Origin: Campylobacterota bacterium
GTDB taxonomy: Bacteria; Campylobacterota; Campylobacteria; Campylobacterales; Sulfurovaceae
NCBI GenBank assembly: GCA_003252535.1
Contig: QKDN01000047.1
Location: 1 to 37,527 of the forward strand
DNA length: 37,527 nt
Direction of reading: 5' to 3'
In this document: positions 901-11,274 of the stretch, in pieces
How the letters are laid out: each line of letters begins with the position of its first letter
How positions within the stretch are numbered: the stretch's first letter is position 1
Position numbers and translations under genes: made by a program
The notes under the pieces: generated by a model
The model's input: the letters and a program-made list of their open reading frames with translations, nothing else
Told to the model about the DNA's origin: nothing
The model's database searches: none

Positions 901-1488
901 CTATATGAGCCGCGCCAGAATTTCCATGGAGATGTCACCCGTCCGGACCACCGGCCTGATCCCCTTCGCAAGGAGGGAATGCTTGAGCCCTTCCCCGATA
1001 TACGATGCGACAAAGAGATTGACCTTCTTCTCCAAAAGTATTTGAGGCAGGACGATGGCAGGTTTTTGCCCGGAATCATACGCAGGATTTTCCATCACCT
1101 CAACCGGTTCGACAGTGTTGCCATTGAAGTGGTAGATATGCAGGTACTCTCCTGATGGTCTGCTCTCTCCCGCTTCATCGCGAGAATCGCTGCACAGTGC
1201 TACCAAAGTATCCTCCCGCTCATCCTCTATCACTATCCTGTAGCCACTCACAAGTGCACCGGCTATCTTGCCACGTGCACTCTTGAGTATCCTGGCGAAT
1301 GTTGGTCTTGACACCTCCATCTGCGCTGCTGCATCCTCCTGGTAGAGCCCCAGCACATCCATCAAGTAGATGGCACTGATCTCCTCGTGGAGGAGTGTGA
1401 CTCCTCCCTCCGCTTCCCCCTCTTCGGGGATGAAGCTTCTGAATATCGGCTTGAAATCAAGCTTTCTTCTGTTTTTCCCTCTTGGCAT
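901..1488 (-). CDS. DUF134 (UPF0251) helix-turn-helix protein fused to a NifX/NifB-like domain
   Basis: This 195-residue protein has two parts. Residues 1-80 match the DUF134/UPF0251 family: the start MPRGKNRR, then a helix-turn-helix of the sigma-region-4 kind around ISAIYLMDVLGLYQEDAAAQMEVSRPTFARIL. Residues 85-195 resemble the dinitrogenase iron-molybdenum cofactor (NifX/NifB C-terminal) fold, with NPAYDSGQKPA, IVLPQILLEKKVNLFVASYIGEGL and a final GIRPVV strand. The same fold occurs in two genes at the far end of the divergent cyd operon. The likely role is a DNA-binding regulator with a metal or cluster-sensing domain that controls itself and the cyd operon. That role is inferred from domain order and position. 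The family has no settled function. Confidence 0.8.
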   Translation of the reverse strand: MPRGKNRRKLDFKPIFRSFIPEEGEAEGGVTLLHEEISAIYLMDVLGLYQEDAAAQMEVSRPTFARILKSARGKIAGALVSGYRIVIEDEREDTLVALCSDSRDEAGESRPSGEYLHIYHFNGNTVEPVEVMENPAYDSGQKPAIVLPQILLEKKVNLFVASYIGEGLKHSLLAKGIRPVVRTGDISMEILARLI

Positions 1489-1510
1489 AATCCATCCTTT
1501 TCTTTCGTCA

Positions 1511-1540
1511 ATTATAACAAAACCATCTTTATTATTGACA
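1511..1540 (-). promoter_or_regulatory. promoter of the DUF134/NifX-like regulator
   Basis: On the minus strand an extended -10, TGTTATAAT (TATAAT at 1516-1511), lies about 22 bases upstream of the start at 1488. Its poor -35 (TGTCAA) occupies the same six base pairs as the TTGACA of the divergent cyd promoter, so the two promoters overlap back to back. Confidence 0.55.
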
Positions 1541-1563
1541 TATGTTCATAATAATGGCATAAT
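1535..1563 (+). promoter_or_regulatory. sigma-70-type promoter of the cyd operon
   Basis: TTGACA (1535-1540), a 17-bp spacer and CATAAT (1558-1563) make a near-consensus promoter. The first transcribed base would fall about 20-25 nt upstream of the DUF4492 start codon at 1592. Confidence 0.75.
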
Positions 1564-1578
1564 TTGGTCATATGTTCA
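1538..1578. promoter_or_regulatory. candidate operator: two direct repeats of CATATGTTCA bracketing the cyd -10
   Basis: CATATGTTCA occurs at 1539-1548 and again at 1569-1578. The 30-bp period is about three helical turns, so both copies lie on the same DNA face. Each is centred on a CATATG palindrome. The first overlaps the shared -35 region of the divergent promoters, and the second lies downstream of the cyd -10. The adjacent DUF134 protein is the obvious candidate ligand; this is inference. Confidence 0.5.
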
Positions 1579-1591
1579 AAAAGGAACTATT

Positions 1592-1804
1592 ATGAACAGT
1601 ATTATTTCAGTTTATAGATTCTATCTCGATGGATTCAAAAATATGAAGATCGGCAAAGCGCTCTGGAAGATCATTGCGTTCAAGCTGCTGGTGATCTTTC
1701 TCTTTTTGAACTACTTCATTCATGATAGATCGATCAATACGGAATACAGGACACAACAACAGAAAGCAGACTTCGTCTACAACAATCTAATAGGAGAGAG
1801 ATAA
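1592..1804 (+). CDS. DUF4492 family small membrane protein
   Basis: This 70-residue protein starts at the ATG at 1592, six bases after an AAGGAAC ribosome binding site. An upstream in-frame extension would cross the promoter and is rejected. The sequence MNSIISVYRFYLDGFKNMKIGKALWKIIAFKLL... has one membrane helix (about 28-45), with a basic, tyrosine-rich region before it. It matches DUF4492, a family found directly upstream of cydA in Campylobacterota and Bacteroidetes. Its stop overlaps the cydA start (TAATG), so the two are translationally coupled. A role in assembly or stability of the bd oxidase is likely from position but not shown by sequence. Confidence 0.8.
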   Translation: MNSIISVYRFYLDGFKNMKIGKALWKIIAFKLLVIFLFLNYFIHDRSINTEYRTQQQKADFVYNNLIGER

Positions 1805-3330
1805 TGGAAGAGCATTTAGTTGACTGGTCGAGAGCACAATTCGCCTTGACCGCGATCTACCACTTCTTGTTTGTACCCCTGACACTGGGGCTCGGGTTCA
1901 TCGTAGCGATCATGGAGACGATCTATGTCCGCACGGGAAGCGAGGAGTGGAAGAAGATCACGAAGTTCTGGATGACCCTCTTTGCGATCAACTTCGCTAT
2001 AGGGGTCGCCACAGGGCTGATCATGGAGTTCGAGTTCGGTACGAACTGGGCGAACTACTCTTGGTTCGTCGGAGACATATTCGGTGCGCCGCTGGCTGTG
2101 GAGGGGATACTGGCGTTCTTTATGGAGAGCACCTTCTTCGCAGTGATGTTCTTCGGATGGAACAAGGTGGGCAAGAGGTTCCACCTCGTCTCTACATGGC
2201 TCGTCGCCGTCGGATCAAATCTCTCGGCACTGTGGATACTCGTCGCCAACGGCTGGATGCAGTATCCCGTGGGGATGACCTTCAACCCCGATACCGTCAG
2301 GAACGAGATGACGAACTTCTGGGAGGTGCTCTTCTCGCCTGTGGCGATATCGAAGTTCCTCCATACGATAGGGAGCGGCTATATGGTCTCGGCGCTTTTT
2401 GTGACGGGGATCAGCGCGTGGTATCTGCTGCGCAACAGAGATGTGCTATTCGCCAAACGCTCGATGATCGTGGGTGCGACATTCGGTTTTGTCGCTTCGC
2501 TCTTTCTCACCCTCAGCGGTGACGAGTCGGCACATCAGGTAGCGCTCAAGCAGCCTGTGAAACTGGCAGCGATGGAGGGACTCTACGAGGGTAGAGAGAG
2601 CGCGGGGATTGTAGCTGTAGGGATACTTAACGGTGACAAGAACCTCACCAACGATCTCGAACCATACCACTTCGAGATCGAGATACCTTACGCCCTCTCG
2701 CTGCTGGGCTACCACGACGCGAATGCCTATGTGCCGGGGCTCAGAGACCTCGTCTACGGCAACGAAGAGCGCGGCATCATCAGCACGGCGGAGAAGATGC
2801 GCAGAGGCAGAATAGCCGTCAATGCGCTCGAAGCGTACAAAGAGGCCAAAAAAGGAGGCGATATCCTGAAAGCAGCGGAAGCCAAAAAACTGCTGGATGA
2901 AAATATGAAGTACTTCGGGTACGGACATATCAAAGCAGCCGAGGATGTCGTACCGCCGATAGCGCTGACATTCTATACTTTCCATATCATGGTGACGCTC
3001 GGGGGCTGGTTCCTGCTGCTCTTTGCGCTGCTGCTCTTCTATGTGACCAAGAGGGATATCAGCGCCTACCCGCTGCTGCTGCGCTCTGCACTCTGGTCGA
3101 TACCTCTGGGATATATCGCTGCGGAGGCAGGATGGATCGTTGCGGAGGTGGGGAGACAGCCGTGGGCTATACAGGATCTGATGCCCGTAGGTATCGCAGC
3201 GACCAAGATAGCGACGACCAATGTACAGATCAGCTTCTGGCTCTTCGCGATCCTCTTTACTCTGCTGCTCATAGCAGAGATCAGGATCATGACCAAGCAG
3301 ATCAAGATCGGACCGGAAGGGGGACACTAA
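1804..3330 (+). CDS. cydA: cytochrome bd ubiquinol oxidase subunit I
   Basis: CydA is the haem-bearing subunit of the bd-type quinol:O2 oxidoreductase in the inner membrane, which reduces oxygen at high affinity without pumping protons. The 508-residue product has the expected landmarks: H20 in AIYHFLFVPLT (haem b595 ligand), a histidine in KFLHTIGSGYM (haem b558 ligand) with the methionine ligand probably in the Q-loop region, GWMQYPVGM, and a quinol loop beginning GDESAHQVALKQPVKLAAMEG. The C-terminal GRQPWAIQDLMPV motif is also present. Several hydrophobic helices span the protein. It starts by overlap with the DUF4492 stop and is followed by cydB after one base. Identification is firm. 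Confidence 0.97.
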   Translation: MEEHLVDWSRAQFALTAIYHFLFVPLTLGLGFIVAIMETIYVRTGSEEWKKITKFWMTLFAINFAIGVATGLIMEFEFGTNWANYSWFVGDIFGAPLAVEGILAFFMESTFFAVMFFGWNKVGKRFHLVSTWLVAVGSNLSALWILVANGWMQYPVGMTFNPDTVRNEMTNFWEVLFSPVAISKFLHTIGSGYMVSALFVTGISAWYLLRNRDVLFAKRSMIVGATFGFVASLFLTLSGDESAHQVALKQPVKLAAMEGLYEGRESAGIVAVGILNGDKNLTNDLEPYHFEIEIPYALSLLGYHDANAYVPGLRDLVYGNEERGIISTAEKMRRGRIAVNALEAYKEAKKGGDILKAAEAKKLLDENMKYFGYGHIKAAEDVVPPIALTFYTFHIMVTLGGWFLLLFALLLFYVTKRDISAYPLLLRSALWSIPLGYIAAEAGWIVAEVGRQPWAIQDLMPVGIAATKIATTNVQISFWLFAILFTLLLIAEIRIMTKQIKIGPEGGH

Positions 3331-3331
3331 G

Positions 3332-4465
3332 ATGGGATTTGGAGAATTGGAACTATTGACACTACAGCAGTACTGGTGGATCATCATCGCACTGCTCGGA
3401 GGACTCTTCGTCTTTATCATGTTCGTACAGGGTGGACAGACGCTCATCGACACCCTCAGCGACGACGAGACAGAGAAGACGATGCTGATCAACGCTATAG
3501 GGCGCAAATGGGAGCTGGGGTTCACCACCCTGGTACTCTTCGGCGGAGCGCTCTTCGCGGCTTTTCCGCTCTTCTACTCCACGAGTTTCGGAGGGGCGTA
3601 CTGGGTGTGGCTGGCGATACTCTTTTGCTTTATCATCCAGGCGGTGAGCTATGAGTACCGTACGAAACCGGACAACTTCCTCGGGCAGAAGGTCTATGAG
3701 AGCTTCTTGAAGATCAACGGAAGCGTGGGGGTATTTCTCCTCGGGGTCGCCATCAGCACCTTCTTCAGCGGTGCGGAGTTCGTCCTCGACTCCAACCGTT
3801 TCGTCGAGTGGCAGAATCCTCTCCGAGGACTCGAAGCGCTGGCAAACCCCTACAACTACCTGCTGGGATTCGCCCTCGTGTTCCTCGCCCGTATCAGCGG
3901 AGCCCTCTACTATCTCAGCAGTATCGACCATGAGCCGATCCGTGACAAAGCTGTCGTATCGATCAGGTTCAATATGCCGCTCTTCCTCCTCTTTTTCCTC
4001 TCCTTTATGGGGTGGATACTCACCAAGGACGGCTACGCGGTCAGCGCAAGCGGGGTTGTGACCATAGAGAGCTACAAGTACCTGCACAACTTCCTCGATA
4101 TGCCGTTCGTGCTCATAATGTTCATCGCAGGGGTGGTGATGGTGATCTTCGCCGTCTTCTCGGCCGTGGTCTACCGCAAGACCTGCTGTATCAAGACCGG
4201 CGGAGCGGGGATCGTCCTCACCGTTATGGCGATACTGCTCAATGTGGGGTTCAACGGCACGGCATACTACCCCTCCACATCCGACCTGCAGAGCTCGCTC
4301 ACGATCGTCAACAGCTCGGGGAGCCACTACACCCTGACAGCTATGAGCTACGCATCGCTGATGGTACCGTTCGTACTGGGCTATATCGCGCTGGCATGGT
4401 ACAGCATGGACAGGGTCAGGATCACCAAAGAGGAGATAGAATCTCCCGACGCACACAACTACTAG
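3332..4465 (+). CDS. cydB: cytochrome bd ubiquinol oxidase subunit II
   Basis: The 377-residue partner of CydA is a polytopic membrane protein that stabilises the haem-bearing subunit. The N-terminus LQQYWWIIIALLGGLFVFIMFVQGGQTL is typical of CydB, as are the following long hydrophobic helices, FGGAYWVWLAILFCFIIQAVSYEYR and the glycine-rich loops. The length fits the family. It begins one base after the cydA stop region and is followed nine bases later by a small membrane ORF. Confidence 0.95.
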   Translation: MGFGELELLTLQQYWWIIIALLGGLFVFIMFVQGGQTLIDTLSDDETEKTMLINAIGRKWELGFTTLVLFGGALFAAFPLFYSTSFGGAYWVWLAILFCFIIQAVSYEYRTKPDNFLGQKVYESFLKINGSVGVFLLGVAISTFFSGAEFVLDSNRFVEWQNPLRGLEALANPYNYLLGFALVFLARISGALYYLSSIDHEPIRDKAVVSIRFNMPLFLLFFLSFMGWILTKDGYAVSASGVVTIESYKYLHNFLDMPFVLIMFIAGVVMVIFAVFSAVVYRKTCCIKTGGAGIVLTVMAILLNVGFNGTAYYPSTSDLQSSLTIVNSSGSHYTLTAMSYASLMVPFVLGYIALAWYSMDRVRITKEEIESPDAHNY

Positions 4466-4474
4466 GAGAAGATC

Positions 4475-4588
4475 ATGGAGTATCTAACGGAAATAGCATG
4501 GTTCAGTCTGTGGCCGATCGTCATCGCGGTCGCCTGGAAACTCAGCGTCAGCAACACGCTCAAATTTGAACAAAAACAAGGAGAATAA
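4475..4588 (+). CDS. 37-residue CydX-like single-pass membrane protein
   Basis: The ATG at 4475 follows AGGAGAAG with good spacing and opens a 37-codon frame: MEYLTEIAWFSLWPIVIAVA, followed by WKLSVSNTLKFEQKQGE. One Trp-rich membrane helix (about 7-24) is followed by a short polar tail. Position directly after cydB and size match the CydX/CbdX class of bd-oxidase accessory subunits, but the sequence is not the familiar proteobacterial CydX consensus, so the name is by position only. The downstream gene's ribosome binding site (AAGGAG, 4578-4583) lies inside its last codons, so the frame is embedded in the operon. Confidence 0.65.
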   Translation: MEYLTEIAWFSLWPIVIAVAWKLSVSNTLKFEQKQGE

Positions 4589-4589
4589 A

Positions 4590-5015
4590 ATGATAGCAAT
4601 ACCCGTAAAAACCAACAAAGAGAACCCGCCGGTCAGCACACTTTTCGGTAAGTCAAAATGGTTCGCTATGATCGACGGTGACAAAGTGACCATCGAGGCA
4701 AATGAGACAGAGAGCGGGAGAGCGGTCGTCGATCACCTCGCTGAGAGAGGTGTAGATACGCTGGTCTTCCACCATATGGGAGGCAACCCCTTCATGCTGC
4801 TCCAGAGAGCAGGGATCAAATGCTACCACAGCGGCGGCGAGAGGATACTGCTCGGCGATGTCCTGGAGAAGCTCAAGAACGGTGAACTGACCGAGGTGAA
4901 CGGGATGAATATGGGAGAATATGTCGAACAGGGCAATATGCACAACAAAGGCTCGAACCACCATCACGACCACGATCACCATCATGACCATGACCACGGT
5001 CATCACCACCACTGA
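4590..5015 (+). CDS. NifX/NifB-like (dinitrogenase Fe-Mo cofactor fold) protein with His-rich tail
   Basis: A 141-residue protein starting at the ATG at 4590, seven bases after AAGGAG. An ATG 24 bases earlier lies within the preceding small gene and has no better ribosome site. Residues 1-105 form an alpha/beta domain of the NifX/NifB C-terminal kind: MIAIPVKT, STLFGKSKWFAMID, then GVDTLVFHHMGGNPFMLLQRAGIKCYH. The last 18 residues (124-141) consist almost only of His, with Asp and one Gly, a plausible metal-binding or storage tail. It is co-transcribed with cydAB. In nitrogenase systems this fold carries Fe-S or Fe-Mo clusters, but no nif genes are present here, so it more likely handles a metal or cluster for another protein. 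Confidence 0.8.
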   Translation: MIAIPVKTNKENPPVSTLFGKSKWFAMIDGDKVTIEANETESGRAVVDHLAERGVDTLVFHHMGGNPFMLLQRAGIKCYHSGGERILLGDVLEKLKNGELTEVNGMNMGEYVEQGNMHNKGSNHHHDHDHHHDHDHGHHHH

Positions 5016-5028
5016 GAAGGAGAAAAAT

Positions 5029-5394
5029 ATGAGACTTGTATTCCCCACCGATGAGAACATGGGCTATCTCAGTCCCAGAGGCGCGCACTTCGGCAAAGCG
5101 AAGTACTATACGATTGTTACGCTCAAGAACAATGAGATCGTCGATGTCGAAGGGATCGCCAATCCCGGACACGACGCAGGAGGATGCGGCAATGCCGTCA
5201 CCAATATCATGCAGCTCCGCCCCGACGCGCTGATCGTGGGCGGCATAGGGGGGAGTCCTGCCAAAGGCTTCGCCAATGCAGGGCTCACGGTCTATTTCGA
5301 CAGAGAATCAGCCATCGTCAAGGATTCGATAGAGCGTTTCATCTCAGGAGAACTCGAAGTGATCGGCGGCAAAGGGACCTGCTCGACACACTGA
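5029..5394 (+). CDS. NifX/NifB family iron-molybdenum cluster-binding-like protein
   Basis: A 121-residue single-domain protein, starting at the ATG at 5029 after GAAGGAGA. It carries the standard family layout: FPTDENMGYLSPRGAHFGKAKYYTIV, an NPGHDAGGCGNAV segment, LRPDALIVGGIGGSPAKGFANAGLTVYF and a C-terminal helix with GKGTCSTH. It lacks the His tail of its neighbour but has cysteines at the G-C-G-N turn and near the C-terminus. It is the last gene of the cyd operon. The same fold forms the C-terminal half of the divergent regulator at 901-1488, so the locus holds three copies of one domain. Confidence 0.82.
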   Translation: MRLVFPTDENMGYLSPRGAHFGKAKYYTIVTLKNNEIVDVEGIANPGHDAGGCGNAVTNIMQLRPDALIVGGIGGSPAKGFANAGLTVYFDRESAIVKDSIERFISGELEVIGGKGTCSTH

Positions 5395-5428: not shown

Positions 5429-5917
5429 CTATTTTGCCAGGATGGCGACGATCCTGAACGGTGAAGTCTTGTTGTTTTTTGCTATTGCGCTGAGCGAAGC
5501 AGCATTCTCCATCGTGATCCCTTCGGCGCTGAGCTTTTCTGCTGCACTCTTGCTGTCCACCTTGAGCACTTGCAATGCGGTATCGATCGGGGCTTCGAGA
5601 ACGGAGCGTATCAGGAGGTCTTTGGGGTTCGGGCCGCTCTGGGCTGAGGCATTGGCGAGGAAGCCGACCGTGACCGCAATGACAGCGGCAGCTGCGAAAT
5701 GAAAGACCCTCTTGCCGAAATATCCCTGCATCGCTTTCCAGTTGAAGAATATATGCAGCAGCGCTGCGGCTACGAAGAGGAGTCCGAGTATCTCGTGGAG
5801 ACTTTTGGTATACTGATCCAGGAGATGGAAGTACATCAGCACTCCTGTCGTCCCGACGATGAGGAAGACGGTCGCTGTCAATGATGTGGCGAGGTTTCTA
5901 CCCTCTGATCTGGTCAT
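5429..5917 (-). CDS. DUF4405-like membrane protein with C-terminal soluble helix region
   Basis: The ATG at 5917 follows AAAGGA eight bases upstream and gives 162 residues. A 14-residue upstream extension has no ribosome site. Three hydrophobic helices are visible (about 8-30, 40-58, 70-90). The second contains HEILGLLFVAAALLHIFFNWK, the pattern of DUF4405/cytochrome b561-like helices, in which the two histidines could ligate haem. The last 65 residues are soluble and helical (PKDLLIRSVLEAPIDTALQVLKVD...). It is convergent with the cyd operon and divergent from the MarR gene. A redox or haem role is inferred only from the helix pattern. Confidence 0.65.
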   Translation of the reverse strand: MTRSEGRNLATSLTATVFLIVGTTGVLMYFHLLDQYTKSLHEILGLLFVAAALLHIFFNWKAMQGYFGKRVFHFAAAAVIAVTVGFLANASAQSGPNPKDLLIRSVLEAPIDTALQVLKVDSKSAAEKLSAEGITMENAASLSAIAKNNKTSPFRIVAILAK

Positions 5918-6035
5918 ATCTGATCCTTTGGTTTGAATTTCCCCCATTGTAACACACATTATTTCACATGTATCTTACTAGGAAGATATAATTGGCCGGA
6001 TTGATTTTTCATTTTGTTTCCTATATACTTACAGG

Positions 6036-6536
6036 ATGGACATCAATGAATTAGACTCTGATATACAGGAGCACAAAGCCAGACTCGGATCGCTATACAG
6101 CAGTGTGCTGGAGACGACACTGCCGTTCTTCATCTTCGAGCAGAGGTTGCAATCAGGCACTGCGAAGATCGAAGAGGGGAGATACAGACTCGCAAGCAGC
6201 GAGGTCGATGTCCTCGTGACGGCGCTCGTCTCGGGGGACGAGGACTACACGATCACCCCCACGAGGCTCTACGAGAAGCTTCTTTTCACCTCCGGCGCCA
6301 TCACCAAGGTGCTCAAAAAGCTCGAGGAGAAGGGGTATATCGAGCGGCTCGACTGCGAGCATGACAAGAGGAGCCGTCTCGTGAGGCTCACACCGATGGG
6401 CAAAGAGACCTGCGAAAACATCCTCTCGGAGGTGTTCGCCTACCAGCAGAGTTGTTTCGATGTGCTGAGTCGGGAGGAGCAGGAGAGCTTCCGGAAGATC
6501 CTGGTCAAACTTGCCAGGGGGATGCCGGGAGGGTAG
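6036..6536 (+). CDS. MarR family transcriptional regulator
   Basis: A 166-residue protein with a winged helix-turn-helix of MarR type. The recognition region reads YTITPTRLYEKLLFTSGAITKVLKKLEEKGYIERLDCEHDKRSRLVRLTPMGKE. LDCEHDKRSRLVRLTPMG is the family's wing signature. Flanking helices at both ends would dimerise. ACAGG lies seven bases before the ATG. It is followed 42 bases later by a gene for an exported protein on the same strand and faces away from the DUF4405 gene, both possible targets. The ligand cannot be read from sequence. Confidence 0.9.
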   Translation: MDINELDSDIQEHKARLGSLYSSVLETTLPFFIFEQRLQSGTAKIEEGRYRLASSEVDVLVTALVSGDEDYTITPTRLYEKLLFTSGAITKVLKKLEEKGYIERLDCEHDKRSRLVRLTPMGKETCENILSEVFAYQQSCFDVLSREEQESFRKILVKLARGMPGG

Positions 6537-6578: not shown

Positions 6579-8267
6579 ATGTATAGAGATACCCAAGACA
6601 CGACCCCAAACGCGACCCGATCGGCGCTGCTCGACAGCCTGCTGCTCCTACTCATAAGTGTATTCCTCTTTTCCCCACAACACCTCTCCGCCAAGTCCAC
6701 ATCGAACGAAGAACAGGTCAAAGTGCAGATCGAGAGCCTGGATGAAATTGCATCGGCCATAGGTACATTGCAGGGTACGGCCGCAGGCATCGTCATCAAG
6801 CAGGAGTACTGTATCCCAGGGACAGGCTACCCGCTCAAGGCGCCGGTCTATGAAGCCATACAGGAACACGCTGCGCAGCTGAACAGCCTGCAGGAGAAGT
6901 TCGTCAAACTGCGATTCACCGTCAACAAGATGCGTATCCAGCCGTTCTTCCAGAACTGGGTACCCGAGAATATCGACAAACGGATGATAGCGGTCGAGAA
7001 ATCGATCCATACCGTCCGAAGCATACTCCATGACAAAAAGAGCGCACTCGACAGCGCCAGGGTCAAAGACTGCCGCGCAAAAGCCCCCGTCGTCAAGTAC
7101 GAGCCCCTCACCCTGCCCGATATCCCGGACTATCTCTGTACCAAAAAAGAGAAACAAAATCTCGTAACCAAGGCCTCCGATACCGTCGAGACCGCCAGGA
7201 GAAATGTGCTCAAGGCACAGTCGACAGCCGACTGGTACGCCAAGGCACCCAAGGGGGAGAGCCCGGAGGCCGCAGCATCGTACAACAAGCTCTTTGAGAA
7301 AGCTCTCGAGGTATACAACGGGCACAAAAAGATATGGGAGAAGGCAAAGGCGCTTCTGAAGGCCGCGAAGAAGCTCAAAGTGGTCAAATGCGATAAGAAC
7401 GGCGTGATGATCTCCACACCGCCGCTGGAGAGAACCGCACTGCAAATCCCCGAACTGCTGCGGCCGATGACCGGGGTGTGCGAACCGTGCAGGGAAGAGC
7501 AGGAAGCATACAACAGAGAAGTGGAAAAGCTCTCGGAGATACGAACCAGGATAGCCGATATCGTCCGCCTCCACGGCGGGTCGTTCGGTTATGTGCTTCC
7601 GGGCGTGGCGGCAGAGTACCGCCTGCTGACCAAGGAGTGGGAGGCGAAACACGGTCTGGCGGTAGAGCTGCGGTATGCCCTTGACCAATGTATCAGGAGC
7701 AGGTGCGCCGCCGAGCCCGAGACTCCTGTCGGGGCCATACACAGCGAGACCCCGGTCAGTGTCGAGGAGAATGCGACAGGGGACTCTTCGGGGATGCTGG
7801 AGGGGATACACCCCGGCGATCTCGACGGGTGCGGCGTGGGATACTGGAAAAGCAAAGAGGATATGATCAAAGCGATGCGATCGCCCAAAGGGATACGGGG
7901 ACTCGGCTGGGAGCTCATGGGGATACCCAAGCCCTGCCCGAAACTCGGCAAAGGGAAGATCGTACAGTTACAGACGATCTGCGAGCGCTTCACGGACGGC
8001 GACTACATGACACTCAGCCCCGACGGCATCCCCCTCTGCTGGTCAAAGCACGCAGCGCCGCCCGCCACCGCCGGAGCCTACATGACCCACTGGGGCATCA
8101 GGGGTCTGACTCTGAGCTCCATCTGTATGAGCGAGCATTTCGACGAGAAACCTACGATAGCCCAGATGCAGGAGCTCGTCCCCATCATCCGCTACAACAC
8201 CGGAGAGATGCATGTCGAGTGCTTCTATATGAAGAGGAGTGCGTATGAGGAGGTGATGGGGGAGTGA
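6579..8267 (+). CDS. exported 562-residue protein of unknown family, helical and cysteine-containing
   Basis: I do not recognise this gene. The ATG at 6579 follows a strong AAAGGAGGAG. Residues 18-34 are a hydrophobic stretch preceded by a polar, weakly charged N-terminus, with a plausible signal peptidase site after LSA (38). From about 40 to 380 the chain is mainly charged and helical, with likely coiled coil (LQEKFVKLRFTVNKMR; TVETARRNVLKAQ). It has evenly scattered single cysteines or pairs, including CEPCREEQ near 305 and CIRSRC near 370. The last 150 residues look globular (DGCGVGYWKSKEDMIKAM, GLGWELMGIPKPCPKLG, MTHWGIRGLTLSSICMSEHF). The cysteines suggest disulfides in the periplasm. 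It may be co-transcribed with the MarR gene 42 bases upstream. Confidence 0.6.
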   Translation: MYRDTQDTTPNATRSALLDSLLLLLISVFLFSPQHLSAKSTSNEEQVKVQIESLDEIASAIGTLQGTAAGIVIKQEYCIPGTGYPLKAPVYEAIQEHAAQLNSLQEKFVKLRFTVNKMRIQPFFQNWVPENIDKRMIAVEKSIHTVRSILHDKKSALDSARVKDCRAKAPVVKYEPLTLPDIPDYLCTKKEKQNLVTKASDTVETARRNVLKAQSTADWYAKAPKGESPEAAASYNKLFEKALEVYNGHKKIWEKAKALLKAAKKLKVVKCDKNGVMISTPPLERTALQIPELLRPMTGVCEPCREEQEAYNREVEKLSEIRTRIADIVRLHGGSFGYVLPGVAAEYRLLTKEWEAKHGLAVELRYALDQCIRSRCAAEPETPVGAIHSETPVSVEENATGDSSGMLEGIHPGDLDGCGVGYWKSKEDMIKAMRSPKGIRGLGWELMGIPKPCPKLGKGKIVQLQTICERFTDGDYMTLSPDGIPLCWSKHAAPPATAGAYMTHWGIRGLTLSSICMSEHFDEKPTIAQMQELVPIIRYNTGEMHVECFYMKRSAYEEVMGE

Positions 8268-8316: not shown

Positions 8317-9279
8317 TTATTGTGACGGCTTTTCTCCCTGTTGATACGGTCCCATAAATTTGTCACCATTGAAGTGGATCATGTGATCAGGTTCTTCGGA
8401 TATCCATACTTCAGTCTCCCATGCGATATCTGCAACATATCTCCTGAAGGTTGCTCTGTCTGGAAATGCCGTAATATATATCTTGTCAGCAGGACAGTTT
8501 TGAAACATAACTTCTAAATCGTTGACCCTTTTTTGATCTATAGGGCCATGCGTGGTAACTGCTTCAATGAGATATATCCAGTTCTTTTTCGAATCGTACA
8601 AAACGACATCCGGTAATTGCAGTTTGTCATTTGTAGAGATCGGTATCCCGATGGATTCAAGCGTATCATTATCTACAAAAATGTATTTATCGGCTGTATC
8701 TCCGATGTAGAGGAGTTTTGTACCATGAGCAAAACGGGGAGTAAACTCATTGATAATGTTCACTTGTAACTGATTATGAGAACCTGCCGATAAACTGAAT
8801 TCTTTACCCTCCACCAGTAGAGGGATTTTATGCATATCTCTTGTTTTTGCGTACTGATCTGCCAGGGTAAGATATTTGCTTTTGAAATCACTGAGAAGTT
8901 TCTCATATTGATTGCTTCCGAAACTCTTGATAACGGTCAGTGCTTCTGAGGATATCGAATAGTTTGTTTTACCGCTGTTGGTCGGTCTTGATGGATCATC
9001 GATATTTCTTAATGCTATATGGGCTTGCTCAAAAACTTTAGCTACTCTTTTTCTCAGTGTTTCCCTCGAGTTCTCTGCATACTCTACACCAAAAACTTCT
9101 TTGATGTAGCCAAATATATCATGGAGTCGCATGAGTTTGTGATTGGTTGCCATACTCCATGAAGACCGATCGTGAATATCCAGTAGCGCAAGAAAAGCAT
9201 ATCTCATAAGATCACTATTGTATTGATCCGGTATACCAAGATCGGACAAGAGTACTTTCGAATCTTTCAAGCGTGACAT
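8317..9279 (-). CDS. type II restriction endonuclease, BsuBI/PstI family
   Basis: The 320-residue product matches the BsuBI/PstI restriction enzymes, which cut CTGCAG. The C-terminal catalytic region contains LPDVVLYDSKKNWIYLIEAVTTHGPI (222-247). D224 and E239 fit the metal-binding acidic residues of the family's PD-(D/E)xK-like core, and EAVTTHGP is close to its signature. The N-terminal half (1-110) is a helical region typical of the family. The ATG at 9279 follows AAAGG. It overlaps the end of the methylase gene by 13 bp on the same strand, so the methylase is made first. Its A+T content is visibly higher than that of flanking genes. CTGCAG specificity is a family inference. Confidence 0.88.
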   Translation of the reverse strand: MSRLKDSKVLLSDLGIPDQYNSDLMRYAFLALLDIHDRSSWSMATNHKLMRLHDIFGYIKEVFGVEYAENSRETLRKRVAKVFEQAHIALRNIDDPSRPTNSGKTNYSISSEALTVIKSFGSNQYEKLLSDFKSKYLTLADQYAKTRDMHKIPLLVEGKEFSLSAGSHNQLQVNIINEFTPRFAHGTKLLYIGDTADKYIFVDNDTLESIGIPISTNDKLQLPDVVLYDSKKNWIYLIEAVTTHGPIDQKRVNDLEVMFQNCPADKIYITAFPDRATFRRYVADIAWETEVWISEEPDHMIHFNGDKFMGPYQQGEKPSQ

Positions 9280-10712
9280 AGATAGCCTTTATAGAGTTGA
9301 TTTGGAATCGGTAAATTAAGGATGTCTGTTGCGTTGACCTGAGTATTACCGTTGAGTATTCTAAAGTATTGATCAACATTTTCAGAAACCAAAAAATCTC
9401 CAAGATGCTTCATCTCTTCTCGTGTGAGCTCCCGATTTTCTCTATATAGATAATTCAGATGGTTTTCCAGACCGATATATCCGCCGTGTAAATCGTCTTT
9501 GAAAATGTAGCCTATATTGATCCGACGATGTTGCTCTTTTGAACTGAATCGCTTGATAATCAGATAGTTTTGATTCGGTATGAGCAGTGCAGCCGATTTA
9601 TCGGAACACTCGATATACTGTTCTTTGATTCTGTCAATCGGGAAAATCAATGTCTCATTTTTGAAGTTATGCATCCAAAGTAAAGGACAATATACTTTAC
9701 CAAGATTAAATAGTCCATTAGTTGTTGTTGCAAGCAATTCTTTATTTCTGAAGGTGACTACTTTCCCGGTCGAAATTTTGTAACCAAGTTCTTCCATGGT
9801 CGCAGGTGCGTTGTGAAATTGTGTAAGAATATCAAGATCACTTGTTGATGACGGTATACAAATGATGTTGCGTCTGCTTTCAACTATCAAGTCTTTTGTG
9901 GTATGAAGAGTATCAATATGACTGAAAGTACTGTCTTCACTGGATGTTATTGACACATCTTTCGAGAGTAATTTGGAAAACTTTGTAATAATTGTTTCTT
10001 GAAGAATATTTTCATTCTGAAAATGATTCTTTCTTGTATTAAAAATATGTATATGGTTTAGTGAAAGACTATGAAGCAGATACTCCCTGAATTTTTTAAA
10101 GTATGTACCTGCGGTAAAGCTACGAGGCGTAATAAACACCATTTCACCATGATCTTTTAAGAGTTCAGCACTTTTTGCCATAAAGAGCATATATATGTTC
10201 GGTTGACCATGTATGACATGTGGCATCGCCTGAGCTTCAGGCGATTGTTTATTGAGTTTAAAATATGGAGGATTTGAAATAATATAGTCAAACTTCTGAT
10301 CAATATGATCCAGGATAAAATTCTGTTCGACGATGGTGTAATAAAAAGATATTCCCGGATTGTTCTTTTTGAATTCTTTGAGATTTTTATCAAGTTCCAT
10401 CAAAACAGTCGGGTCAATCTCATAAAGAGTCACCGCTATATTTTGATAACCTTTTTGGATCAGTTGATTAGCAAGTGAAATTGAGAGTATCCCATGTCCG
10501 GCGCCGCAATCAAGGATATGAATCGTATCAGAATGAGGTAGAGTGAAAGAAAAAAGATGAGCCATGAAGTCAGCAATACGATGATCGGTAAAAAACTGTC
10601 CTAATTCTTTTTTCTTAGTAAGTGAAGTAGCCTGTGTATGAACATAGGCTTTCTTTTCAACCGCTTGGAGTAGGTTTAAGTGTTTTTGCTTTATCAGGCT
10701 TAATGTGGTCAC
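9267..10712 (-). CDS. N6-adenine DNA methyltransferase of the BsuBI/PstI restriction-modification system
   Basis: A 481-residue class I methyltransferase. The AdoMet-binding motif is LDCGAGHGILSISLA (67-81), the acidic strand end is LYEID (97-101), and the catalytic motif is NPPY (147-150), diagnostic of adenine-N6 or cytosine-N4 amino methylases. KKELGQFFTDHRIADFM (34-50) is the usual amino-terminal motif of gamma-type enzymes such as M.PstI/M.BsuBI. The C-terminal 250 residues form the target-recognition region. The start is a GTG at 10712 preceded by AAGGAGG. It protects host DNA from the overlapping endonuclease. The gene is A+T-rich, consistent with acquisition. Confidence 0.9.
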   Translation of the reverse strand: MTTLSLIKQKHLNLLQAVEKKAYVHTQATSLTKKKELGQFFTDHRIADFMAHLFSFTLPHSDTIHILDCGAGHGILSISLANQLIQKGYQNIAVTLYEIDPTVLMELDKNLKEFKKNNPGISFYYTIVEQNFILDHIDQKFDYIISNPPYFKLNKQSPEAQAMPHVIHGQPNIYMLFMAKSAELLKDHGEMVFITPRSFTAGTYFKKFREYLLHSLSLNHIHIFNTRKNHFQNENILQETIITKFSKLLSKDVSITSSEDSTFSHIDTLHTTKDLIVESRRNIICIPSSTSDLDILTQFHNAPATMEELGYKISTGKVVTFRNKELLATTTNGLFNLGKVYCPLLWMHNFKNETLIFPIDRIKEQYIECSDKSAALLIPNQNYLIIKRFSSKEQHRRINIGYIFKDDLHGGYIGLENHLNYLYRENRELTREEMKHLGDFLVSENVDQYFRILNGNTQVNATDILNLPIPNQLYKGYLCHA

Positions 10713-10901: not shown

Positions 10902-11274
10902 TGGTGGAGATGAGGGGGATCGAACCCCTGTCCTAAAATAGCTAGAACTATGACTCTACATGCTTAGGCGGTATTGATAGGTCTCATCTTGCTTCGCTCA
11001 ACACCCAAGGCTTTGCAAGACCAGTCTGAGAGTTCGTCCGCAGGTTAGACAGCCTGTGGATATAGTCATCAGATATGATACCTCAAACTCCGGCTAAGAT
11101 GACACTCACCGGCGAGGCAGTCCTCCGCTTGCGCGGGGTTAAAGACTTACGCTACTGCGTAAGCTGGACGATAATCTGTATTGTTTGCAGTTATGCGATT
11201 GGGCCGCGTAACGGAATTGCCCAGTCCGACATGCACATAGCCCCGACTACTCCAGTCGAAACCAAGTCATCCCC
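10902..11274 (-). ncRNA. ssrA: transfer-messenger RNA (tmRNA)
   Basis: The RNA starts GGGGAUGA at 11274 and ends UCAUCUCCACCA at 10902. The tRNA-like acceptor stem pairs with the G3:U70 wobble that marks alanine identity, and GGUUCGAUCCCC forms the T-arm. The tag reading frame (11188-11147, minus strand) is GCA AAC AAT ... GCG TAA and encodes ANNTDYRPAYAVA. tmRNA rescues stalled ribosomes and tags the nascent chain for proteolysis. The tag is close to those of Helicobacter and Campylobacter (NN..., PAYA...) but ends VA rather than the usual AA. The boundaries rest on the paired ends. Confidence 0.97.

Follow-up and report, generated by a model that had tools for sequence, protein, structure and literature searches.

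Why should a cytochrome bd oxidase operon be faced by a regulator that ends in a NifX-like domain, and itself end in two further NifX-like genes? Campylobacterota living where oxygen meets sulfide have to choose between oxidases, and a sequence-only reading of one such locus had proposed an undescribed control circuit tied to oxygen or metals. The locus lies at positions 901-5394 of the window, the whole 37,527-nucleotide stretch of Sulfurovaceae DNA analyzed here. We surveyed 41 genomes (the window's own and 40 relatives), 399 genomes of the order and, in a scan based on an alignment of the fused regulator, GTDB species genomes.

Gene content of the cytochrome bd locus

The window was annotated from six-frame open reading frames with Pfam and NCBIfam scans. 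The features of the locus, with the basis for each in parentheses, are:

901-1488, minus strand: DUF134-NifX fusion, 195 aa, predicted regulator (Pfam, AlphaFold, Foldseek, 60 relatives)
1535-1548, plus strand: predicted operator 1, TTGACATATGTTCA, spanning the -35 hexamer TTGACA at 1535-1540 (conservation)
1558-1563, plus strand: predicted -10 hexamer CATAAT, with TG ahead of it and 17 bp past TTGACA (promoter-match scan)
1565-1578, plus strand: predicted operator 2, TGGTCATATGTTCA, overlapping the predicted transcription start, expected near 1570 (conservation)
1592-1804, plus strand: DUF4492, 70-aa protein immediately 5' of cydA (Pfam E 9e-24)
1804-3330, plus strand: CydA, cytochrome bd oxidase subunit I (Pfam E 1e-166)
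3332-4465, plus strand: CydB, cytochrome bd oxidase subunit II (Pfam E 1e-67; NCBIfam TIGR00203 above cut-off)
4475-4588, plus strand: CydX-like small ORF, 37 aa (homologue in 97/101 cyd loci; Pfam match absent)
4590-5015, plus strand: NifX-like protein with an LFGKS motif and a His-rich tail containing 14 His (PF02579 E 1e-11)
5029-5394, plus strand: NifX-like protein with motifs RGAHFGKA and GGCGNAV and a C-terminal CSTH (PF02579 E 1e-12; TM1816 and ORP relatives)

The fusion is divergent from the run DUF4492-cydA-cydB-CydX-like-NifX (His tail)-NifX at 1592-5394. The sequence-only reading had placed the divergent regulator and its strand correctly, and the two NifX-like proteins that it described as completing the cydAB operon are confirmed by the PF02579 matches; DUF4492, the CydX-like frame, the His-rich tail of the first NifX-like protein and the double operator at 1535-1578 go beyond it. 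The intergenic gaps downstream of cydB measure about 10, 2 and 14 bp, and no promoter-like match was found on the plus strand between 3384 and 5600. A single transcript from cydAB to the NifX-like genes is therefore the simplest reading, which by layout would make these genes part of the cyd transcription unit. Separate transcription of the NifX-like genes, which the earlier reading had set against its own proposal, is disfavored by this arrangement.

CydA and CydB, the two subunits of a cytochrome bd oxidase, are encoded in one operon. Their product may be a bd enzyme with a heme d spectrum or a cyanide-insensitive member of the bd family; a 2007 study by Jackson is said to have reported the C. 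jejuni cydAB product as not of bd type. DUF4492 was detected directly 5' of cydA in 100 of 101 Campylobacterota cyd loci and is likely an accessory subunit or assembly factor of the bd oxidase in this phylum. A CydX-like frame of 31-50 aa lies 3' of cydB in 97 of the same loci, and a paper on small proteins of C. jejuni reportedly mentions CydX.

The fusion carries a helix-turn-helix type DUF134 domain at residues 3-88 (PF02001, E 4.7e-18, 66 bits against a cut-off of 27), followed by PF02579 (Nitro_FeMo-Co) at residues 114-192 with E 3e-7. All three NifX-like domains of the locus pass the PF02579 cut-off of 26.3 bits, the fused one with 31.1 and the others with 45.4 and 48.6 bits; the fused C-terminal domain, at 31 bits, resembles the family only moderately. 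Structure comparison agrees with the profile matches, as the C-terminal part of a 34-sequence AlphaFold model of the fusion (pLDDT 88.8) matches NifX, NafY, ORP and TM1816 structures in Foldseek (9ian, 1p90, 2wfb, 1o13).

Among the relatives compared, the fused NifX domain keeps Asn134, Gly165, Gly167, a Lys or Arg at 169, and Gly176. A universally conserved Cys or His that could serve as a ligand was sought in this domain and none was found, so a Cys-ligated cluster there is unlikely. The conserved residues may fit an anionic or protein ligand better, and the earlier suggestion that oxygen or a metal specifically is sensed finds no support in the analysis. His-rich tails occur in many cyd-linked NifX proteins.

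No nif genes were found among the annotated neighbors of the window, so the NifX-like proteins lie outside the nif cluster that defines NifX proper; for annotated genes, the earlier remark that nitrogenase genes are absent nearby holds. The genome has one DUF134 gene. Further PF02579 genes lie on contig C8 and on contig C48, which has three, one of them a 528-aa frame whose sequence resembles the NifB C-terminus.

Beyond the locus, a DUF4405 gene (5429-5959) and a MarR gene (6036-6536) have no homologues in the cyd loci of relatives. The 562-aa protein at 6579-8267 has a putative signal sequence and no Pfam match. A BsuBI/PstI-type restriction endonuclease and an Eco57I-like methyltransferase (8317-10712) form a probable restriction-modification system that adjoins a tmRNA gene (10902-11274, tag ANNTDYRPAYAVA), a neighborhood commonly used for integration.

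A predicted double operator that accompanies DUF134

The cyd promoter of the window, TTGACA-17-CATAAT at 1535-1563, is the best promoter match of the region (11/12). Two copies of the near-palindrome TGAACATATGTTCA flank or overlap it, with cores at 1539 and 1569, 30 bp apart. The DUF134-associated site can also be written as the pattern TG[AC]ACATATGT[GT]CA.

Reading the divergent intergenic regions of the fusion loci revealed CATATG-centered sites in most of them, and TTGACATATG is present in 55 of 73 non-redundant fusion promoters. Of these 55 regions, 46 have their best -10 at a spacing of 17 bp and 8 at 18 bp; in 47 the -10 matches at least five of six positions (background 6%), and 44 have a second core at a distance of 30, 31 or 32 bp.

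The motif was discovered and counted in the same phylum, and the fair comparisons are a reversed-pattern control and DUF134-negative genomes: the exact 14-mer TTGACATATGTTCA occurs 78 times in the 399 genomes against 2 for the reversed control, and 61 of the 62 genomes with the site encode DUF134 (Fisher p 3e-37). Of the 78 exact sites, 65 have a DUF134 gene no more than 500 bp away. Among the 46 DUF134-linked loci, the window included, 34 show a strict site upstream of cyd, versus 4 of 76 unlinked loci, and all four of the latter are in genomes that encode DUF134. Twelve linked loci have no strict-form site, some of them carrying a looser CATATG core. At forty DUF134 loci picked for having no cydA beside them, 39 promoters contain a CATATG core with flanks that give TGAACATATGTTCA, compared with 8.6% of background windows, which indicates that the site belongs to DUF134 and not to cyd.

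The exact sequence ACATATGTTCA occurs once in the 2.92-Mb genome, at the window. The only other double core in this genome is on contig C44, with the cores 22 bp apart and without the flanking bases. A wider regulon in the same genome was considered and not retained, as 33 sites with at most one mismatch against 25 for the control is no clear excess. The locus itself has the arrangement of a local bd-operon regulator, with the regulator gene adjacent to the operon and a site, predicted from conservation, at the promoter.

Three Sulfuricurvum loci (L165-L167) have diverged DUF134 fusions in which TTTACATATGTTAA replaces TGAACATATGTTCA, which suggests altered specificity.

Linkage and history across Campylobacterota

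The sequence-only reading had called for a survey of cydAB neighborhoods in Campylobacterota, and the association proved not to be unique to this genome. Across the order, 119 of the 399 genomes encode DUF134 and 154 have a CydA that passes the cut-off. Of the 70 genomes for which the listed matches include both, 26 have DUF134 no farther than 5 kb from cydA, whereas a simple uniform-placement estimate predicts 0.41, so that adjacency is observed at about 63 times the expected rate.

The fusion was found in 60 named loci of the GTDB species genomes, nearly all labeled Campylobacterota and including Arcobacter, Malaciobacter, Poseidonibacter, Sulfurospirillum, Sulfurimonas, Sulfurovum and Sulfuricurvum. 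The cassette is present in Sulfurospirillum diekertiae JPD-1 (L136). A generic label (Proteobacteria, bacterium) is attached to two loci. A further one is named Desulfosporosinus and is apparently a mislabeled MAG contig, since its cyd locus is Arcobacteraceae-like. About half of the 60 loci have cydAB beside the fusion, in a recurrent map with the fusion divergent from DUF4492-cydAB-cydX and NifX genes upstream or downstream; in the remainder the fusion faces NifX genes alone, or a SLAC1/TehA transporter and DUF6858. A NifX-like gene is on the cyd strand in 23 of the 26 DUF134-linked cyd loci, and 69 of 75 NifX genes near cydA share its strand. We rejected the idea that NifX-like genes are general cyd accessories or bd maturation factors because 59 of 101 sampled cyd loci have neither NifX nor DUF134; the earlier suggestion of metal or cluster delivery to the oxidase is not supported.

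The CydA of the window shares 85% identity with its counterpart in family f16, and in the CydA tree it groups with f16 and f8 (Arcobacteraceae, including Arcobacter sp. CECT 8985), outside its own family, a sign of transfer. The fusion, DUF4492 and the small ORF share the nearest relatives of this CydA, and the second NifX is equally close to relatives within the genus. In the set of 41, the nine other genomes of the genus have no cydA, and several of these carry a DUF134-NifX-NifX operon. Over 37 loci, fusion and CydA distances are correlated (Mantel r 0.71, 0 of 2000 permutations). Linkage is patchy, its label changing at least six times on the CydA tree, which does not support a single ancestral cyd-NifX-DUF134 unit. 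These changes, the shared relatives and the correlated distances together suggest a cassette that was assembled, lost or transferred several times. By sequence comparison, no fewer than five families have conserved the DUF134-cyd association, and it has arisen or been moved more than once.

A Sulfurimonas MAG has, at L118:6184-7582, the fusion, the double operator, NifX and the small ORF, with only a 35-aa remnant of cydB; cydAB was apparently deleted there and the circuit retained.

DUF134 also occurs apart from cyd, in loci with NifX and 4Fe-4S MinD-type ATPases or with NifU-C proteins. In six loci (L124, L150, L154, L157, L159, L160), what lies opposite the fusion and operator is not cydAB but a SLAC1/TehA-family transporter, in many cases accompanied by DUF6858, and this is likely a second target of the DUF134-NifX class. 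Two standalone DUF134 genes (L293, L298), with the same operator core, are divergent from a sulfide:quinone-reductase-like flavoprotein.

Proposed mechanism and comparison with known systems

We consider it probable that 901-5394 is a self-contained regulatory cassette in which the fusion binds and controls the cyd-nifX operon, a judgment that concerns the regulatory half of the proposal and not the ligand. The fusion would bind two copies of TGAACATATGTTCA, one on the -35 and one on the cyd start site. Sites that cover the -35 and the start of a near-consensus promoter are typical of repression, and we infer on this basis that the bound fusion represses the DUF4492-cydAB-cydX-nifX-nifX operon, though activation is conceivable. 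Under repression, a signal arriving via the NifX-like domain would release the promoter, and the alternative oxidase would be produced only when needed. The co-transcribed NifX-like proteins would most likely handle the regulator's ligand by carrying, buffering or scavenging it, and could close a feedback loop, perhaps through ligand exchange with the regulator's NifX domain.

For the ligand, the likeliest candidate is an Fe-S or thiometallate species, or the sulfide or iron status that governs such species. Known ligands of PF02579 relatives are Fe-S or thiometallate species (PMC5524996, PMC6345978), and these ligands, together with the Fe-S neighbors of other DUF134 genes, make an Fe-S, thiometallate or sulfide effector plausible. 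Resistance to sulfide, NO and cyanide and local repressors are both known for bd oxidases of other bacteria (PMC4815019, PMC11837568, PMC6096048), so a stress-relief switch would be reasonable. More tentatively, we propose that DUF134-NifX proteins constitute a new class of one-component transcription factors. Their NifX fold, otherwise known for carrying metal-sulfur clusters of the nitrogenase type, would have turned sensor and, on reading an Fe-S, thiometallate or sulfide signal, would shift respiration to cytochrome bd, with the NifX proteins of the operon exchanging the same ligand with the fusion.

A narrower form of the ligand half of this proposal is a sulfide or reactive-sulfur switch, which we regard as possible but rather unlikely. 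The regulator would sense sulfide directly, or via an Fe-S or thiometallate species, and induce a sulfide-tolerant bd oxidase when heme-copper oxidases are poisoned. Bd oxidases do sustain respiration that resists sulfide (PMC4815019), and in other bacteria bd operons have dedicated local repressors, CioR and CydE (PMC11837568). Sulfurovum, Sulfurimonas, Sulfurospirillum and Sulfuricurvum are among the fusion carriers, and the flavoprotein genes at L293 and L298 fit as well, but their counts as neighbors are small and the NifX-like carriers indicate metal-sulfur species rather than sulfide alone. Sulfide:quinone reductases are, moreover, common in Campylobacterota genomes of this kind.

An oxygen or redox switch, the emphasis of the earlier reading, seems unlikely to us. 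In that scheme the repressor would stay active as long as its NifX domain bears an oxygen-labile cluster, and cydAB would be induced once the cluster is lost in oxygen. The regulated target is an oxygen reductase, and the Fe-S species bound by PF02579 proteins (PMC6345978, PMC5524996) are often oxygen-labile; the fused domain, however, has no conserved Cys or His, and DUF134 operators also precede loci with no obvious oxygen role, namely those of MinD-type ATPases and SLAC1/DUF6858.

It is improbable that the NifX-like proteins, one of them His-tailed, supply iron for the cytochrome bd heme while the regulator acts as a metal sensor. Tight co-transcription, as judged by layout, and the His-rich tails of many cyd-linked NifX proteins would suit such delivery, but a nearby NifX gene is missing from the 59 sampled cyd loci noted above, and the relatives G003, G005, G006 and G009 have the module without cydAB. 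Bd oxidases elsewhere function without NifX-like proteins. That cydAB was inserted by coincidence beside a pre-existing, functionally unlinked DUF134-NifX-NifX module, as the cydAB-free modules of the genus and the transferred look of the window's CydA might suggest, is highly improbable given the roughly 63-fold excess of adjacency, the co-orientation of NifX with cyd and a conserved operator that overlaps the cyd promoter itself.

Local repressors of the one-component type are already known for bd operons; for the protein class, its operator and its NifX partners we found no description. A search of open-licence literature on DUF134 (UPF0251) function returned nothing relevant and one on NifX-like genes linked to cytochrome bd returned only unrelated co-mentions, while a review of Campylobacterota respiratory regulation has cydAB only in its reference list. 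Linkage conserved in at least five families, NifX genes that by layout belong to the cyd unit and a two-site predicted operator lend good support to the earlier notion of an undescribed control circuit. With the cassette as proposed, DUF134, a Pfam family without an assigned function, gains a candidate function, DNA site and target, and NifX-like proteins outside nitrogenase assembly would be placed in respiratory control.

Among the closest known systems are CioR of Chromobacterium and CydE of Alishewanella, GbsR/MarR-type repressors of bd operons that are likewise dedicated, encoded with the operon and act at its promoter (PMC11837568, PMC6096048). CioR and CydE are winged-helix MarR/GbsR proteins, whereas the window has a DUF134 helix-turn-helix joined to NifX, its own predicted operator and co-transcribed NifX-like proteins. 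Lacking the MarR/GbsR fold, the fusion is predicted to work like this kind of regulator and is not a member of it.

The fold and sequence family of all three NifX-like domains are those of NifX, NafY and the NifB C-terminal domain (PF02579), from which the window differs in its position outside a nif cluster, a fused domain without conserved Cys or His and a His-tailed partner. ORP and MrpORP of Desulfovibrio also have a PF02579 domain outside nitrogenase assembly, and MrpORP binds Fe-S clusters (PMC6345978); the window operon has no Mrp ATPase, whereas the orp system as described is not known to include cyd genes or DUF134. IssA, the thioferrate storage protein of Pyrococcus, is a precedent for anionic iron-sulfur binding by an IPR003731 domain without a Cys-rich site (PMC5524996). 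Its tail is Gly-rich and cationic, whereas that in the window is His-rich and its gene operonic with cydAB. The DUF134-NifX-MinD-type Fe-S modules of the same phylum share the DUF134 operator core and NifX partners with the window but have 4Fe-4S MinD-type ATPases as neighbors where the window has cydAB.
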